Shown here: positions 32,228 through 38,886 of the stretch, one piece after another
How positions within the stretch are numbered: position 1 is the first letter of the stretch
Layout of the letters: every line of letters begins with the position of its first letter
Source of the DNA: Acidimicrobiia bacterium
Lineage (GTDB): Bacteria > Actinomycetota > Acidimicrobiia > Acidimicrobiales > Bin134
Assembly (NCBI GenBank): GCA_022822905.1
Contig: JAJDYE010000029.1
Location: 62,001 to 126,000, forward strand
Direction of reading: 5' to 3'
DNA length: 64,000 bases
Program-made: the position numbers and the translations under genes
The notes under the pieces: generated by a model
The model's database searches: none
What the model was told of the DNA's origin: nothing
Seen by the model: the letters and a program-made list of their open reading frames with translations, nothing else

Positions 32228-33766
32228 TCATTTGCCATCGGACACGGCAGCCTCGCAGAAGTTCATCACCGAGCGCACTGCCACGTTGGCGCCTTCGGTG
32301 TCGAAGGCAGCCGAATACACATTCCCTTCCCTGTCAGTGGTGGACACAACCACCGACATGACGTCATGGCCCAAGACCGCATCGAAGAGGCGGAAGCTCC
32401 CGAAGGCGTCAAAGGTCGTGAACCTCGCACCAGACCCCTCTCGGCCGGCCAAGGTGAGGACATCACCGTTGGAGAACCTGGCCTCAACCCACAAATCCCC
32501 GTTGGCGGCACCGAACACCGCATCGCCATCCCAGCCCACATAGGAGAACAACCCCCACCTATCGCTGGATTCGTAGAATTCACAGGACATTCTCAGAGTG
32601 GGAACGTTGTTGTCGGAGATACCCTCGGTTTGAAGGGCTGATGTCAGCACTCCGACTTGAACGAATTCCGAGCTGGCATAAGAGCTCCATCTTCCGTATG
32701 ACCGGGGATAGTCCAAGGGAACCGCGGGGGCGGGGTCAAAGCAGGGCCAGTCCAATTCCTCCTTTTGCCAACACAGGATTTCCTCGAACGACAAGGGATC
32801 GATCGTGCTCCGTATCCGGCACTCGTCCGTCCCATTCATGAGCGACCAAACCACCTCGGAGCACTGGTACGCCCTGATCTCCTCGTCATCGGTGTGCTCC
32901 AAGCCGAAGAGCCCATGTCCAATCTCATGGGCCACGATGTAATGGAAGCCGCCGCCGAACGGACCTCCCCAGGCTCTGAGCGATACCCGCGACGGCCCGA
33001 GGCCATTGGTGGCGTAGCCGCCGAATCTCTCGCCGCCCTCGATGTCGATCAGGATGAGAATCTGCGATCCCTGCCCTTCGGCAATTGCTGCGAAGTCGCA
33101 GGCCGAGAAGCTGCCTCGGTCAAACAGGTCGCTGAGTGTTGTGTTCTGCCAATCGAATGTCGGAGACACGATGCCTCCGACGGTGAAATACACGTTTGCG
33201 AGCCCGGATGACTCGCGGGTGTAAAACGGGGTCACGTGCTCGTTCAAGTCGGCCACCACGTCTGCCAGTTCGCTCTCGGAGTACCGTCCGGCCGGAGCGC
33301 AGTAGAACACCGGGATCGCCGCAGTCGTCCTTACCTCCCGAGGAGGTGTCTGAGTGGTCGGGGGATCAGGCTCCGGTGTGCTGGTACAACTGCCGGGCAC
33401 GATCTCGGTGTCGATGTCGAACCGACACCGGTAGACGTTGAGCAGTGCTTCTTGTGCGGCCACGAGCCGATCTCGCTCCGCTATGTCGGCACGGTTTGGG
33501 GTGCCGGTGAACGGCACCGGCGGGACCGCGGGGATGACAGGGGTACCCCCACCGCATCCCCCAGGAACAATCTCGGTGTCGACGTCGAACCGGCACCGGT
33601 AGACGTTGAGCAGTGCTTCTTGTGCGGCGACGAGCCGATCTCGCTCAACGACATCCGAGGCAGTTTGAGCTTGAGCGGGCGCTGCCAAAAGGATGGAGAG
33701 GCCCGCTCCCAGCACCATGAGAGCCATCAGCATGCAGATGCCGCGGCGCGGCGTACTAGACAGCAT
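32228..33766 (-). CDS. Secreted metzincin-like zinc metalloprotease
   Basis: A 512-residue secreted protein. Residues 1 to about 34 form a signal peptide (LMALMVLGAGLSILLAAPAQA-QT). A tandem pair of about 31-residue modules with ERDRLVAAQEALLNVYRC and DTEIVPG-C follows (about 38-70 and 93-126), then a Pro/Thr linker. The catalytic part shows AHEIGHGLFGLEH: HExxH plus a third His, but one residue longer than the classical HExxHxxGxxH. SLMNG downstream looks like a Met-turn. Several Cys pairs suggest disulfides. The C-terminal 150 residues are beta-rich (SSDRWGLFSYVGWDGDAVFG) and may bind a target. The gene ends convergent with the cupin. The start at 33766 lacks a clear Shine-Dalgarno sequence. 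Confidence 0.8.
   Translation of the reverse strand: MLSSTPRRGICMLMALMVLGAGLSILLAAPAQAQTASDVVERDRLVAAQEALLNVYRCRFDVDTEIVPGGCGGGTPVIPAVPPVPFTGTPNRADIAERDRLVAAQEALLNVYRCRFDIDTEIVPGSCTSTPEPDPPTTQTPPREVRTTAAIPVFYCAPAGRYSESELADVVADLNEHVTPFYTRESSGLANVYFTVGGIVSPTFDWQNTTLSDLFDRGSFSACDFAAIAEGQGSQILILIDIEGGERFGGYATNGLGPSRVSLRAWGGPFGGGFHYIVAHEIGHGLFGLEHTDDEEIRAYQCSEVVWSLMNGTDECRIRSTIDPLSFEEILCWQKEELDWPCFDPAPAVPLDYPRSYGRWSSYASSEFVQVGVLTSALQTEGISDNNVPTLRMSCEFYESSDRWGLFSYVGWDGDAVFGAANGDLWVEARFSNGDVLTLAGREGSGARFTTFDAFGSFRLFDAVLGHDVMSVVVSTTDREGNVYSAAFDTEGANVAVRSVMNFCEAAVSDGK
33396..33655 (-). repeat. Duplicated 31-residue Cys module in the metalloprotease
   Basis: Two copies of about 91-95 bp (33396-33486 and 33561-33655) encode the same module: ERDRLVAAQEALLNVYRC, RFD(V/I)DTEIVPG and a closing Cys. 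They differ at only a few bases and are separated by a Pro-rich spacer. Each module has two cysteines that could form a disulfide. I do not know a name for this module. Confidence 0.85.
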
Positions 33767-33779
33767 CCAGCATGTGGTA

Positions 33780-35876
33780 TCAGCGTTGGGGGCCGAACCA
33801 GGTGTCGTGGAGCCGCTCGTAGATTCCGCTTTCGACTAAGTCCAACAGCGCGAGGTTGATGTGCTCGCGCAGCTCGGGGTCGTCAGAGCTGAGCATGAAG
33901 CCGTACTGAACCCTTTGGAAGTCCGACCCCACCGTGGTGACCTCTCCGTCGCCCTCGCGGGCCGCGTGGAACTGGAGCACCGGGGCGTCGAACACCACCG
34001 CATCCACCTCTCCGTCGAGCAAAAGGGGGTAGGCGTCATCGATGTTGCCCACCAGCACTGGGCCAACCCCGATGGAGGGGAGATACGTCTCCGCCGCCGA
34101 GTGGGTGGCGGTGGCCACCCGCTTGCCCGCCAGATCGGAGGGTCCGGAGATCTCGGATCGCAGCTCGCTCACCGCCAGCGACGAGGCGATGGCCGCGGTG
34201 AAGCTGGCGAACACCAGGGTTCCCAAGGCGATCCACAACAGCGCCAGCACCCGGCCCCGCGTCCCCCGGGCCACCTTGTCGCCGTACCCGACGGTGCTCA
34301 TGGTCACCACCGACCAATAGAACGAGTCCCAGATGCCCCGCCGATAGGGCACGGCGAAATCGGGATTGTGGCGGCGCTCCGACAACCAGATCAAGTGGGC
34401 GGCGACCAGTACCGCGGCGGCGAACACGATCATCAGCCACGGCAGGTCAGACGACCAAACGGCCCGGAAGAAAGAGGCAATCCGATCGCCGATGCCTCGC
34501 GACGAATCGCTGGGCACAAGGATGGTCAGGCCGGAGTCCAACACGGGCAACGAGAAGTCCACCACCTCCTCGCGGGACTCGGTGACGGCCACCCCTCCCA
34601 GGCCGAGCCGGGCGACGCCCCGGTCGATGTCGTCTATCTGCTTGGCGGTGGTGTCAACCGCATAGATCTCAACTCCCATGCCCAGCTTGGCCGCCACCAG
34701 CCGCACCAGCTCGACCTCGAAGCCGCTGTAGATGCGGTTCTCGTAGATCACGAACGGCGGCAGCGCCCGGGCGGCCACCGTAAGGGTGCCCCCGGGACCG
34801 GCCTCTTCCCCCGAGGGCTCGGAAATGCCCACCGCGTCGGGGTCGGCCGCGGCGATCCAGCGCTCGACGGTGGCCTGATTGGCCGCCACCCACTCCTCGG
34901 CGTGGCGCCGTATGTCGGCGGGATCGCCACCCGTGGTCACCATGCGGACGTTCTGTGCGGAAATGTCGGTCAGCGGGATGACCACCTGCTCTAGCAGGCG
35001 GCCGACGGAGGGGTTGGCGAAGAGGAAATCGGTGTTGGCCACCGCCCGTATGTCGTTGGGGGGCCAGCCGGTGTGGCAGGGATCGTTGGCGCATCCCGGA
35101 ATCCCGGCAATGGTCGTGTAGTCGATCGAAGAGGCCAGGTCGGCGGGCAGAGACGGGAACGGGGTCTCCAGCCACACCACGTCTTGGCCGGGGACCAGCT
35201 CGCCCGCCGTCCAGTTGGGGGTCCAGGTGAAATAGAGCACCGGCTGTCCGTCTCGGAAACGGTCGATGGTCTCTGCAATCAGCGGCGAGTAGTCGCCCTG
35301 CACATGCTCCACCGTGCCGGTCAGGCCGTAGGCCTCCAGGTGGTGGTCGATTATGGACGCGCACGACCATCCGACGTTGCAGCCCACGAGATCGGCCACG
35401 CCGTCACCGTCGTGGTCGAACAGCTCGGCTATCGCAGGGTCGGACAGATCGCCCAGATTCGAGATGCCGTGGGCGACGGCGGTGGCCGCATCCACGAAGT
35501 AGCCCTGCAAAGCCCCGTCGTCCACTGCGGTGCCGACCACCGACACCGGGGACCCGTCGGGTATGAACACGTGGTGGGACGGGAACCAGCCGTTGACCCA
35601 CAGATCGACTTCCCCCTCGGCCACCGCACCGTAGAACTCGGCGTTGTCCATCGTGGTGGGACCGTCGACTTGATAACCCAGCCGCTCCAGCAGCAGCCGG
35701 TAGACCTCGGCCTGGAACCAGCCGGTGTCCCAAGTGGCCCGGGCCAGGCGAACCCTGGGCGCGTCGTCGGAGGTGTCCTGCGCGGTTGCTGAAGCGCCCA
35801 AGGACAGCACCAGGGCGCCCAGCACCAGAACCAATAGGGCTACCAGCGCTCGGCGGAGTGAATTATGCACTCTCAC
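33780..35876 (-). CDS. ProX-type betaine-binding domain fused to a GluR0-like potassium channel
   Basis: A 698-residue fusion read from GTG 35876 (GTG 35870 is an alternative); the longer in-frame extension lies inside the upstream gene. Residues 1-33 form a signal peptide. Residues about 42-340 are a ProX/OpuAC domain with the three cage tryptophans in NGW97FPSH, VGW170SC and TW218TPNW, plus an EF-hand-like DHDGDGVAD. Residues 363-455 are the S1 lobe of an ionotropic glutamate receptor-type domain (TESREEVVDFSLP, Arg435). TM1 is about 478-498, a pore helix leads to the potassium filter T528VGYGD533, and TM2 is about 541-568. S2 (572-698) carries VVFDAPV. Topology puts all ligand domains outside. 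It is the third gene of an operon after BCCT and ProX genes, 14 nt behind proX. A ligand-gated K+ channel is expected; betaine gating is inferred. Confidence 0.88.
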   Translation of the reverse strand: MRVHNSLRRALVALLVLVLGALVLSLGASATAQDTSDDAPRVRLARATWDTGWFQAEVYRLLLERLGYQVDGPTTMDNAEFYGAVAEGEVDLWVNGWFPSHHVFIPDGSPVSVVGTAVDDGALQGYFVDAATAVAHGISNLGDLSDPAIAELFDHDGDGVADLVGCNVGWSCASIIDHHLEAYGLTGTVEHVQGDYSPLIAETIDRFRDGQPVLYFTWTPNWTAGELVPGQDVVWLETPFPSLPADLASSIDYTTIAGIPGCANDPCHTGWPPNDIRAVANTDFLFANPSVGRLLEQVVIPLTDISAQNVRMVTTGGDPADIRRHAEEWVAANQATVERWIAAADPDAVGISEPSGEEAGPGGTLTVAARALPPFVIYENRIYSGFEVELVRLVAAKLGMGVEIYAVDTTAKQIDDIDRGVARLGLGGVAVTESREEVVDFSLPVLDSGLTILVPSDSSRGIGDRIASFFRAVWSSDLPWLMIVFAAAVLVAAHLIWLSERRHNPDFAVPYRRGIWDSFYWSVVTMSTVGYGDKVARGTRGRVLALLWIALGTLVFASFTAAIASSLAVSELRSEISGPSDLAGKRVATATHSAAETYLPSIGVGPVLVGNIDDAYPLLLDGEVDAVVFDAPVLQFHAAREGDGEVTTVGSDFQRVQYGFMLSSDDPELREHINLALLDLVESGIYERLHDTWFGPQR

Positions 35877-35890
35877 AAAAGTGTGCCGGG

Positions 35891-36949
35891 TCAGCCCCTT
35901 GCGGTTGCCAGCCAACCGTCGACGGTGTCGCGGTTGGCCTCGATCCAGTCGGCGGCGTCGGCGTTGATCTGGCTCTCGGAATAGCCCAGCTCCGCGGCGG
36001 CCATCTTGGCGTTTTGGGCCGCGATGTCCTCCAGCGGAATGGTCACGACCTCCAGCAGCCGACGCACGGGCTCGTTGTCGTCGAGGAAGTCCTCGTTGCC
36101 CACCGCACGAATACTGCTGACGGCCCAACCGAGGTTGCAGGGATCAGAGGCGCAGCCCCGCAGGCCCCGCACCTCGGTGGTCCCCTCCTCGTCGTCGAGG
36201 GCGGGCGACTCGAGCCACACGACCTGCTCACCTGGTGTCAGTACTTCGTAGGTCCAGTTGGGCGTCCAGGCGTAGAACAGCACGGGCTCGCCGGCCGCGA
36301 TGCTCTCCCGTACTCCGGCCGCCAGGCTGTTGTAATCGCCGGAGATCTGCTCGACGTTGTCGCCCCAGTCAAGATCAGCGATGTGGGAGTCGATGACCGT
36401 CTGGCAGCCCCAGCCGTCGTTGCAGCCGATCAGGTCGGCGAGCCCGTCGCCGTCGTGATCGAAGACTCGGGCCACCGATGCGTCGGCCAGCTGGCTCATG
36501 GAGGTGATCCCCATTGCGTCAGCCGTGGCCTTGTCGATCATGTAGCCCTGAAGTGCTCCCGAGCGCACCTGGTAGCCCACTGGCTCAATGGGAAGTTCGA
36601 GGGTCTCGCCGGTTACCCGCTCGCCCTCCAGGTAGATGTCGTGCAGGGGGAACCAGCCGTTGACCCAGAGGTCGAACTGCCCGCTGGCCAGTGCAGGGTA
36701 GAACCCGTTCGGGTCGCGGGTGTTCTCGGCCGGATCGCTCACCTCGTAGCCGAGCTCTCCGAGGAGCTGGGCGTAGATGGCGGCCTGCATGTGGCCGCTA
36801 TTCCAGTTGGCCCGGGCCATCGTGACCGTGCCGTCATCCTCATCGGTCCCGCAGCCGGCAAGCACCAGGGCCAGTGCGGCCAGCACGGCCACGAGGATTA
36901 CCGGCGCCCGGCCGAAGATGCGTCGGTTTGTCGCGTTCTGATTAGTCAT
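35891..36949 (-). CDS. ProX/OpuAC-type glycine betaine-binding lipoprotein
   Basis: A 352-residue solute-binding lipoprotein. The signal ends in the lipobox LVLAGC with Cys33. The cage tryptophans of E. coli-type ProX are present: NGW99FPLHD, DGW180GC and AW228TPNW, with an EF-hand-like DHDGDGLAD just before the second. A Cys pair (GLRGCASDPCNLGW) probably forms a disulfide. It should bind glycine betaine or proline betaine outside the cell. The start overlaps the BCCT stop (ATGA) and has AGGAGG upstream. No ABC permease or ATPase is near it, so it may work as a sensor or feeder for the neighbouring transporter or channel instead of an ABC importer. Confidence 0.92.
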   Translation of the reverse strand: MTNQNATNRRIFGRAPVILVAVLAALALVLAGCGTDEDDGTVTMARANWNSGHMQAAIYAQLLGELGYEVSDPAENTRDPNGFYPALASGQFDLWVNGWFPLHDIYLEGERVTGETLELPIEPVGYQVRSGALQGYMIDKATADAMGITSMSQLADASVARVFDHDGDGLADLIGCNDGWGCQTVIDSHIADLDWGDNVEQISGDYNSLAAGVRESIAAGEPVLFYAWTPNWTYEVLTPGEQVVWLESPALDDEEGTTEVRGLRGCASDPCNLGWAVSSIRAVGNEDFLDDNEPVRRLLEVVTIPLEDIAAQNAKMAAAELGYSESQINADAADWIEANRDTVDGWLATARG

Positions 36950-38799
36950 GGGGCCTCCTGTCTCACCTCTGAGGCTTCCGTGGGCCCGGCCTCAAGCCGG
37001 GACTTCATCTCCTCTATCAGGCCGCTATGGCGAGAGCGGAAGAGCGCCTCGTCGTAGTGGCCCTCCAATAGATCGAGCTCCTCGTTGAACGCCTTCTTCA
37101 GGCTCCACAGCATGATGAGGAGGATCAGAGCGAAGGGAAGGCCGGTGGACACCGCCGCGGTCTGCAACGCCGACAGTCCTCCGCCGAGCAGCAGGACCAC
37201 GGCAACCGCGCCCTCCATGATCGCCCAGAACACTCGCTGGGGCTTCGGCGAGTCGAGCTTGCCTCCCGAGGTGAGGTGGTCTACCACCAGCGACCCCGAG
37301 TCGGAGGAGGTGACGAAGAACGACACCAACAGCAGCACGCCGATCAGCGACACGACTTCGGTGAGCGGGAACGCCTCCAGCATGTCGAACAGAGCCGTGG
37401 CCACGTTGTCGTTGACTGCGGTGGCAACGTCGCGCTCGCCGCTGAGCTGCAAGTCGATGGCCGCTCCGCCGAAGACGGAGAACCACAGGAAGCACAGAGC
37501 TGAGGGCAAGAAGATGACACCGGTCAAGAGCTCGCGAACCGAGCGGCCCTTGGATATGCGGGCAATGAACATGCCCACGAACGGCGACCACGAAATCCAC
37601 CATCCCCAGTAGAAGATGGTCCAGCCGGCTTGCCAGTTGCTGCCGGTGAAAGCCTCGTTCCAGAAGCCGAACTCGGGGATGATCTGGACGTAGTAGCCGG
37701 TGCTCTGGACAAACAGCGAGAGTATGAACAGCGTCGGACCCACCAGAGCCACGAACAGCAGGAAGGCTCCGGCCAGATAGATGTTGAGCTGGCTGAGCCG
37801 CTTCACTCCGGCGTCAAGCCCTGCCACCACCGAGATGGTGGCCAAACCGGTTATGCCGGCAATGAGCAGGATTTGGAAGCCGGTGCCGTCGGGCAAGTCA
37901 TACAGCTTGTTCAGCCCGGCAGCGGCCTGCTGTGCTCCGAGGCCCAACGAGGTGGCCAGGCCGAACAGGGTGGCGACCACCGTCAGGGTGTCGATGGCGT
38001 TGCCCCAGTTCCCGTAGATCCTCGGTCCCAAGATGGGGTAGAAGATCGAGCGGAAGGTGAGCGGCAGCCCGCGGTTATAGGCGAAGAAGCCCAACGCCAG
38101 CGCCACCAGCCCGTACAGCGCCCAAGCGTGTACCCCCCAGTGCAAGAACGTGGTGGCCACTGCGGCTTTGGCCGCTTGCCCTGTGCTCGGATCGACGTCG
38201 AACAGCGGGGGCGGCGACGCCAAGTGGTAGATGGGCTCGGCCACGCCCCAGAACATCAGCCCGATGCCGATGCCCGCCGAAATGAGCATGGCGTACCAGG
38301 CTCCAGTCGAGAACTCCGGACGGGCGTACGGCCCTCCGAGCCGTATTTTCCCGTACCGGCTGAACGCGAAGTACAGCGCCATGAACAAGAAGATGTTGAA
38401 GTCGATTACGTAGAGCCACCCGAGCTTCTCGTTGATGAACGAGAGGATCTCCCCGAATACATCGCTGGCCGTGTCCTGGAAGATCAGCGTCCAGCCGATG
38501 AAGACCAGAAGGAATCCTGCCGACCAGAACGTGACTTGCGGATGGATGTCGAAGCCCCATCGCACAATGTTCTTATCACCGGGCTCTCGGTCGGCCACCT
38601 CCGGGTAGAAGTCGATATCGGGATCGATCTGGAGACCTTCGAAGGGCTTGCGGTTGTGGATTGCCTCATCCCGCAGCCGATGTTCTTCGGCCTCCCATTC
38701 ATGGAGGGCCTGCGTCGCCTCCGTGAGATCGACGTCGGTGTCATCAGGACTTCGGCGAATACGCGAATCTCCCGATGCCGTGGCGTCTGCGTCGTCCAT
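36946..38799 (-). CDS. BCCT-family betaine/carnitine/choline transporter
   Basis: A 617-residue secondary transporter with about 12 transmembrane helices. The BCCT signature is clear in TIFYWGWWISWSPFVGMFIARISKGR, and the glycine-rich GIGIGLMFWGVAEP of the third helix matches sodium-coupled betaine carriers. A hydrophilic N-terminal tail of about 85 residues and a charged C-terminal tail of about 45 residues (GHYDEALFRSRHSGLIEEMKSRLE) may sense osmotic state, as in BetP. ATG 38799 is chosen over a longer frame because GGAGG sits 8 nt upstream. It is the first gene of the osmolyte operon; its stop overlaps the proX start. Confidence 0.95.
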   Translation of the reverse strand: MDDADATASGDSRIRRSPDDTDVDLTEATQALHEWEAEEHRLRDEAIHNRKPFEGLQIDPDIDFYPEVADREPGDKNIVRWGFDIHPQVTFWSAGFLLVFIGWTLIFQDTASDVFGEILSFINEKLGWLYVIDFNIFLFMALYFAFSRYGKIRLGGPYARPEFSTGAWYAMLISAGIGIGLMFWGVAEPIYHLASPPPLFDVDPSTGQAAKAAVATTFLHWGVHAWALYGLVALALGFFAYNRGLPLTFRSIFYPILGPRIYGNWGNAIDTLTVVATLFGLATSLGLGAQQAAAGLNKLYDLPDGTGFQILLIAGITGLATISVVAGLDAGVKRLSQLNIYLAGAFLLFVALVGPTLFILSLFVQSTGYYVQIIPEFGFWNEAFTGSNWQAGWTIFYWGWWISWSPFVGMFIARISKGRSVRELLTGVIFLPSALCFLWFSVFGGAAIDLQLSGERDVATAVNDNVATALFDMLEAFPLTEVVSLIGVLLLVSFFVTSSDSGSLVVDHLTSGGKLDSPKPQRVFWAIMEGAVAVVLLLGGGLSALQTAAVSTGLPFALILLIMLWSLKKAFNEELDLLEGHYDEALFRSRHSGLIEEMKSRLEAGPTEASEVRQEAP

Positions 38800-38886
38800 A
38801 ACAGGGCCTCCAATTTGCTTTTGGTGTAAGTGGGGCATCCCGCACAAAACTGTTCAGATGCCCAAAGCGTCGGGGCCTTTTAGCTC

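Follow-up and report, generated by a model that had tools for sequence, protein, structure and literature searches.

The closest described relatives of the protein reported here are the GluR0 channels, namely, Synechocystis GluR0, NpGluR0 (2pyy), and the Group 1 sequences of Ger et al. (2010, PMC2950845). These channels are arranged as S1-TM-pore-TM-S2 with a K+ filter, possess the Arg/Asp pair of the ligand-binding core, and lack an M4 helix. The described members have no amino-terminal domain. OpuAC is not named in the domain list which Ger et al. gave for 100 sequences (PMC2950845), and a 2019 paper (PMC6385376) and a 2025 review (PMC12551409) likewise present GluR0 or the prokaryotic receptors as lacking an amino-terminal domain. 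Animal ionotropic glutamate receptors (AMPA, NMDA, and delta), in contrast, carry a binding-protein domain N-terminal to the S1-pore-S2 core; this domain is of the LIVBP type, and the receptors have an M4 helix and no K+ filter. Some bacterial Cys-loop channels also carry a binding-protein domain, an N-terminal PBP-I domain proposed to preconcentrate or sense the ligand (Tasneem et al. 2004, PMC549065), but those channels belong to an unrelated pentameric superfamily and use another binding-protein family. Ligand-gated channels that respond to betaine are represented by LGC-41 and ACR-23 of Caenorhabditis elegans (PMC9860315), which are nervous-system Cys-loop receptors passing chloride or cations in general and which have no ProX domain. 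Escherichia coli ProX (1r9l), whose fold and betaine cage recur in the protein described below, serves the ProU ABC transporter.

The window analyzed here, a stretch of 64,000 nucleotides from an Acidimicrobiia genome assembly, encodes a ProX domain and a GluR0-type channel within one uninterrupted frame of 698 codons that begins with GTG. The gene and its parts are as follows:

33780..35876, minus strand: ProX-GluR0 fusion gene, 698 amino acids, GTG start (single open frame; Pfam and NCBIfam domains)
35796..35867, minus strand: N-terminal hydrophobic helix, residues 4-27, probable Sec signal peptide (sequence and model helix 4-27)
34842..35756, minus strand: ProX/OpuAC domain, approximately residues 41-345, with Trp97, Trp170, Trp218, His101, and Cys172 (PF04069, 1r9l alignment, Foldseek)
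34785..34841, minus strand: variable linker, residues 346-364 (length and sequence vary among members; low pLDDT at 349-360)
34497..34784, minus strand: S1 lobe, residues 365-460, with invariant Thr432 and Arg435 (Pfam, alignment, conservation)
34155..34445, minus strand: TM1, pore helix, filter, and TM2, residues 478-574 (Ion_trans_2, Lig_chan, model helices)
34278..34295, minus strand: K+ selectivity filter TVGYGD, residues 528-533 (sequence; 54 of 55 members)
33792..34154, minus strand: S2 lobe, residues 575-695, with invariant Asp630 and no M4 helix after it (Pfam, alignment, conservation, model)

Pfam placed OpuAC at residues 41-331 (E 6e-45; 154 bits against a curated cut-off of 21.2) and SBP_bac_3 at residues 366-695 (E 4e-24), the latter split around Ion_trans_2 (512-567; E 3e-14) and Lig_chan (480-586; E 3e-13), both of which were also above their curated cut-offs. 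The NCBIfam ProX equivalog model scored 335.8 bits, more than 100 above its cut-off of 215, while the ProX half fell far below the cut-off of the NCBIfam choline-binding model. In a comparison with sequences of solved structures, E. coli ProX (1r9l; E 6e-64) and the Nostoc GluR0 ligand-binding core (2pyy; E 1e-38) were the best matches, and behind them came amino-acid-binding proteins and animal NMDA receptors. An AlphaFold2 monomer model built on the family alignment (mean pLDDT 80.8, pTM 0.49) was confident within the domains, uncertain in the placement of ProX relative to the channel, and poor at the filter, and it contained helices at 478-503, 511-527, and 539-574. The top Foldseek match of the model in the PDB was ProX with glycine betaine bound (1r9l; TM-score of 0.89 on the target), and animal AMPA and delta glutamate receptors came after ProX. 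The first-pass annotation, made from the letters alone, had read a complete ProX domain with all three cage tryptophans and a glutamate-receptor-type channel of the order S1-TM-pore-TM-S2 with a TVGYGD filter as a single protein, and it had proposed a search for OpuAC (PF04069), SBP_bac_3, and Ion_trans_2. All three domains were found above their curated cut-offs, and each part of that reading was borne out: the single protein by the frame, the Pfam and NCBIfam matches, and 54 homologs; the channel order by the split SBP_bac_3 match and the model helices; the filter by its conservation; and the cage by alignment to 1r9l.

In that alignment, W97, W170, and W218 correspond to W65, W140, and W188 of E. 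coli ProX, giving the three-tryptophan trimethylammonium cage of ProX/OpuAC proteins. Across the 55-member fusion family W97 and W170 are invariant, the W218 position is aromatic throughout (Trp in 48, Phe in 6, and Tyr in 1), His101 is kept in 47 members, and Cys172 is invariant. The ProX domain looks built to grip betaine. The channel half has the S1-TM-pore-TM-S2 order, the K+ signature filter, and the S1 Arg and S2 Asp of GluR0-type channels; when aligned with NpGluR0 (2pyy), the protein has R435 and D630 at these two positions, and both residues, like T432, are invariant in all 55 fusions. With a glutamate ligand, the S1 Arg holds the alpha-carboxyl and the S2 Asp the alpha-amino group (Ger et al., PMC2950845). 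Because S1-S2 keeps an amino acid site of its own, a two-ligand channel is more probable than one that takes only betaine. Eukaryotic-type receptors differ in both of their added elements, as the amino-terminal domain here is OpuAC rather than LIVBP and no helix follows S2. Lys412 and Asp415 (window 34641-34632, minus strand), located where an S1 helix begins, show the same invariance across the 55 fusions; the residue corresponding to Lys412 is Glu in NpGluR0, and the pair is possibly tied to ligand choice.

The filter is intact in 54 of the 55 members. Two actinobacterial fusions, the Haloactinopolyspora protein (L063:5851-7947, plus strand) and a gapped Phytoactinopolyspora copy (L082:6154-8044, plus strand), read TPFGAGNN at that place, and these channels may have lost K+ selectivity or conduction. 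An unfused GluR0-like protein from the same taxonomic order as the window (L019:113-1363, plus strand) has no recognizable K+ filter, reading ITGGEAVK.

In a whole-genome search, the complete fusion turned up in four related genomes (99, 87, 85, and 74% identity), and a scan of 84,980 species genomes yielded 54 full-length single-frame homologs, the four related species among them, with identities to the window protein down to 40%. All 55 members match OpuAC, SBP_bac_3, Ion_trans_2, and Lig_chan. The carriers belong to Acidimicrobiia, Nitriliruptoria, Jiangellaceae (Actinomycetota), "Deltaproteobacteria", Cyanobacteria, Chloroflexota, and Bacteroidota; many of those in Acidimicrobiia derive from sponge or coral metagenomes, judged by bin names, and the cultured carriers include Salsipaludibacter albus AS10, Haloactinopolyspora alba, and Halomicronema sp. 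CCY15110. No relative was found in a scan of viral contigs, and no plasmid record covered 80% of the query. Between close pairs, dN/dS was approximately 0.05 to 0.2 in ProX, S1, the pore, and S2 (approximately 0.1 to 0.2 for ProX itself) and approximately 0.3 to 0.45 in the linker in most pairs, making the linker the fastest-evolving segment, in which the frame is nevertheless kept. Both halves of the fusion are under purifying selection. These data also bear on the chance that two genes were joined by a frameshift, a chimeric contig, or chance read-through; the first-pass annotation had named a frameshift or assembly error near residues 340-365 as one danger to its reading. In one relative (L083:5838-8054), ProX and the channel are split between two frames that overlap, which reflects either a sequencing indel or genes that are not fused, but the window itself gives such an artifact no support. 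The 54 further homologs come from many assemblies, isolates included, and purifying selection spans the join; since each of these homologs carries both halves at full length in one frame, joined by linkers that differ in length and sequence, an assembly or frameshift join is ruled out, and we regard the probability of any such artifact as negligible.

In a tree of the channel part, which included few unfused channels, the fusions formed one group against channels without ProX with a support of 95/96, and in a tree of the ligand-binding core to which NpGluR0 was added, the support for the fusion group was 90/89. The channel part thus forms its own group relative to the described GluR0 channels. 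The fused ProX domains also grouped together, except for that of L085, which was placed among deep branches, and the neighboring stand-alone ProX proteins formed a separate group with a support of 99. Because the neighboring and fused ProX domains form separate groups, a recent tandem duplication of the neighbor into the channel gene is ruled out. The trees fit a single old fusion event followed by spread, partly across phyla. L085 itself was rejected as a diverged fusion: the Chloroflexaceae protein (L085:293-2465, plus strand) has no channel and combines ProX with an entire amino-acid-binding protein that by eye resembles AapJ. It represents a second kind of ProX fusion. Two adjacent ProX matches in open frames of equal length (738 amino acids) were seen at G007:C1:1133260-1135167 (L007) and are probably a tandem double-ProX protein; similar pairs occur in G014, G015, and G018. 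A fifth related genome has a decayed fusion (L017:5005-6056, G005), where neither the BCCT gene nor the stand-alone ProX is present, the fused ProX domain is mostly missing, and the remaining channel is frame-shifted.

Two genes in the window, in the order BCCT - ProX - fusion, adjoin the fusion:

36946..38847, minus strand: BCCT family transporter (Pfam BCCT, E 6e-190)
35891..36949, minus strand: stand-alone ProX, 352 amino acids, with a lipobox-like LAGC motif (Pfam OpuAC, NCBIfam ProX equivalog)

The BCCT and ProX genes overlap by 4 nucleotides, and 14 nucleotides separate ProX from the fusion. On the other side, 13 nucleotides downstream of the fusion, is a gene for a secreted protein (window 32228-33766, minus strand) with two similar N-terminal repeats and a HEIGH motif, which is protease-like and had no match in Pfam or NCBIfam; it is found in G019 and G005 and is not at that place in G021. 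The neighbors of the fusion are thus a BCCT carrier, a lone ProX, and an unassigned secreted protein, and there is no ATPase and permease alongside as is expected for the binding protein of an ABC transporter. The fused ProX domain differs in this respect from its E. coli counterpart, being joined to a channel beside a BCCT carrier. By sequence reading only, a probable ABC cluster with its own OpuAC-family protein lies on another contig of the source genome. A simple scan for promoters and terminators gave nothing above chance. No second BCCT gene was found in the source genome assembly. In NCBIfam the carrier comes closest to the betaine BCCT model, scoring below that model's cut-off, and its nearest solved structure is a trimethylamine transporter (8zw8). 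Its solute would be a methylated ammonium compound, most likely betaine.

The association with BCCT carriers extends beyond the window. When the gene context of 57 other fusion loci was determined by tblastn, 43 had a BCCT gene next to the fusion, and 39 had a nearby gene for a stand-alone ProX or another OpuAC-type protein, nearly always with BCCT. Among these 57 loci, BCCT was not adjacent in those of Cyanobacteria and several others. Relative to the fusion, the BCCT gene lies in at least four configurations (divergent, convergent, or on the same strand either upstream or downstream), and because the arrangement varies, the link is more than the inheritance of one block. In control loci, BCCT was present in 1 of 13 with ProX only and in none of 4 with an unfused channel. 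BCCT is rare in the order (10 of 298 genomes), occurring in all 6 genomes with the fusion versus 4 of the 292 without it; the 8 genomes that have an unfused channel all lack BCCT. Fisher's exact test gave a p value of 2e-10 for the co-occurrence, a value which ignores shared ancestry and overstates independence, as the six fusion genomes represent three genera in two families. In four "Deltaproteobacteria" loci (L059, L076, L081, and L083), a different OpuAC-type protein of approximately 306 amino acids accompanies BCCT and the fusion, which suggests that BCCT carriers may work with extracellular binding proteins.

Betaine replaces cytoplasmic K+ as an osmolyte, and cells let K+ out once betaine becomes available. 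BCCT carriers such as BetP are coupled to Na+. We hypothesize that the fusion is a K+-selective GluR0-type receptor whose ProX amino-terminal domain gates K+ efflux alongside solute uptake by BCCT, a reading to which we give an even chance. Export by the predicted signal peptide would put ProX and the S1-S2 clamshell outside the cell, and four subunits would form one pore. On binding glycine betaine or a closely related methylammonium compound, ProX would close, and the flexible linker would pass this closure to the S1-S2 clamshell, biasing it toward pore opening, so that an amino acid on S1-S2 and the solute on ProX jointly open the K+ pore. K+ would then exit while the adjacent BCCT carrier brings in solute, replacing K+ as the osmolyte, and its exit would offset the inward charge of the cation-coupled carrier. 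The export, the tetramer, the betaine ligand, the direction of gating, the conduction and efflux of K+, and the physiological role are all points that we infer. In its broader form, the proposal of a class of dual-ligand channels, gated by betaine at ProX and an amino acid at S1-S2 for BCCT-coupled K+ efflux and arisen independently of the animal receptors, is tentative, and we hold it slightly more likely to fail than to stand.

Several other functions could be assigned to the same protein. One point against betaine as the sensed solute is that the partner BCCT is nearest to a trimethylamine carrier; the identity of the ligand is for that reason not certain, and the solute could be another methylated ammonium compound. 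The same device might then respond to trimethylamine, TMAO, proline betaine, DMSP, or choline, and the Phe or Tyr found at the third cage position in 7 of 55 members would agree with this. However, the ProX half clears the cut-off of the NCBIfam glycine betaine/proline model by a wide margin and falls well short of the one for choline binding. The betaine model is the best NCBIfam match of the BCCT itself, and we consider another solute unlikely. ProX might instead be a capture device that concentrates betaine and hands it over to BCCT, with the channel as an anchor or an amino-acid-controlled K+ leak. The stand-alone ProX or OpuAC-type proteins at so many of the loci do suggest teamwork between BCCT carriers and binding proteins, but a cheap lipoprotein in the same cluster already does this job. 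Capture would need neither the conserved K+ filter nor the conserved S1-S2 site, and the fusion is kept in Cyanobacteria without an adjacent BCCT; we think this role unlikely.

A largely structural role for ProX, with the domain aiding tetramer assembly as amino-terminal domains do in animals and contributing little ligand signaling, would be compatible with the variable linker, and animal receptors can function without the domain, as does a working chimera that lacks it (PMC6385376). A ligand cage is not needed by a domain that serves structure alone, whereas this domain retains W97 and W170 in every member, an aromatic residue at position 218, and His101 in most, at the low dN/dS of the ProX domain, and we judge this role decidedly unlikely. 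The polarity could also be the opposite of that proposed, with betaine shutting the channel so that K+ is retained while solutes are gathered under osmotic stress. The direction of coupling cannot be read from sequence, but general osmophysiology has K+ released when betaine arrives, which an opening channel fits better, and we view reversed polarity as very improbable.

Bacteria do put an amino-terminal binding-protein domain on a glutamate receptor channel, contrary to current reviews, and it comes from a family other than that used by animals. The first-pass annotation had recognized that the two domains differ in family, and with OpuAC here and LIVBP in animals the addition does look independent. 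It also knew of no described example, and we found no published description of a ProX-GluR0 architecture in the open-licence literature searched, which takes in few subscription journals. The family offers an independent test of the effect of an amino-terminal domain on gating, and cultured carriers such as Salsipaludibacter albus AS10 and Halomicronema sp. CCY15110 make ProX-GluR0 testable. The channel is also a possible missing piece of osmoregulation, as it could couple the sensing of compatible solutes outside the cell to the release of K+, beside a single-component importer. If this is true, solute uptake and K+ release would constitute one unit.
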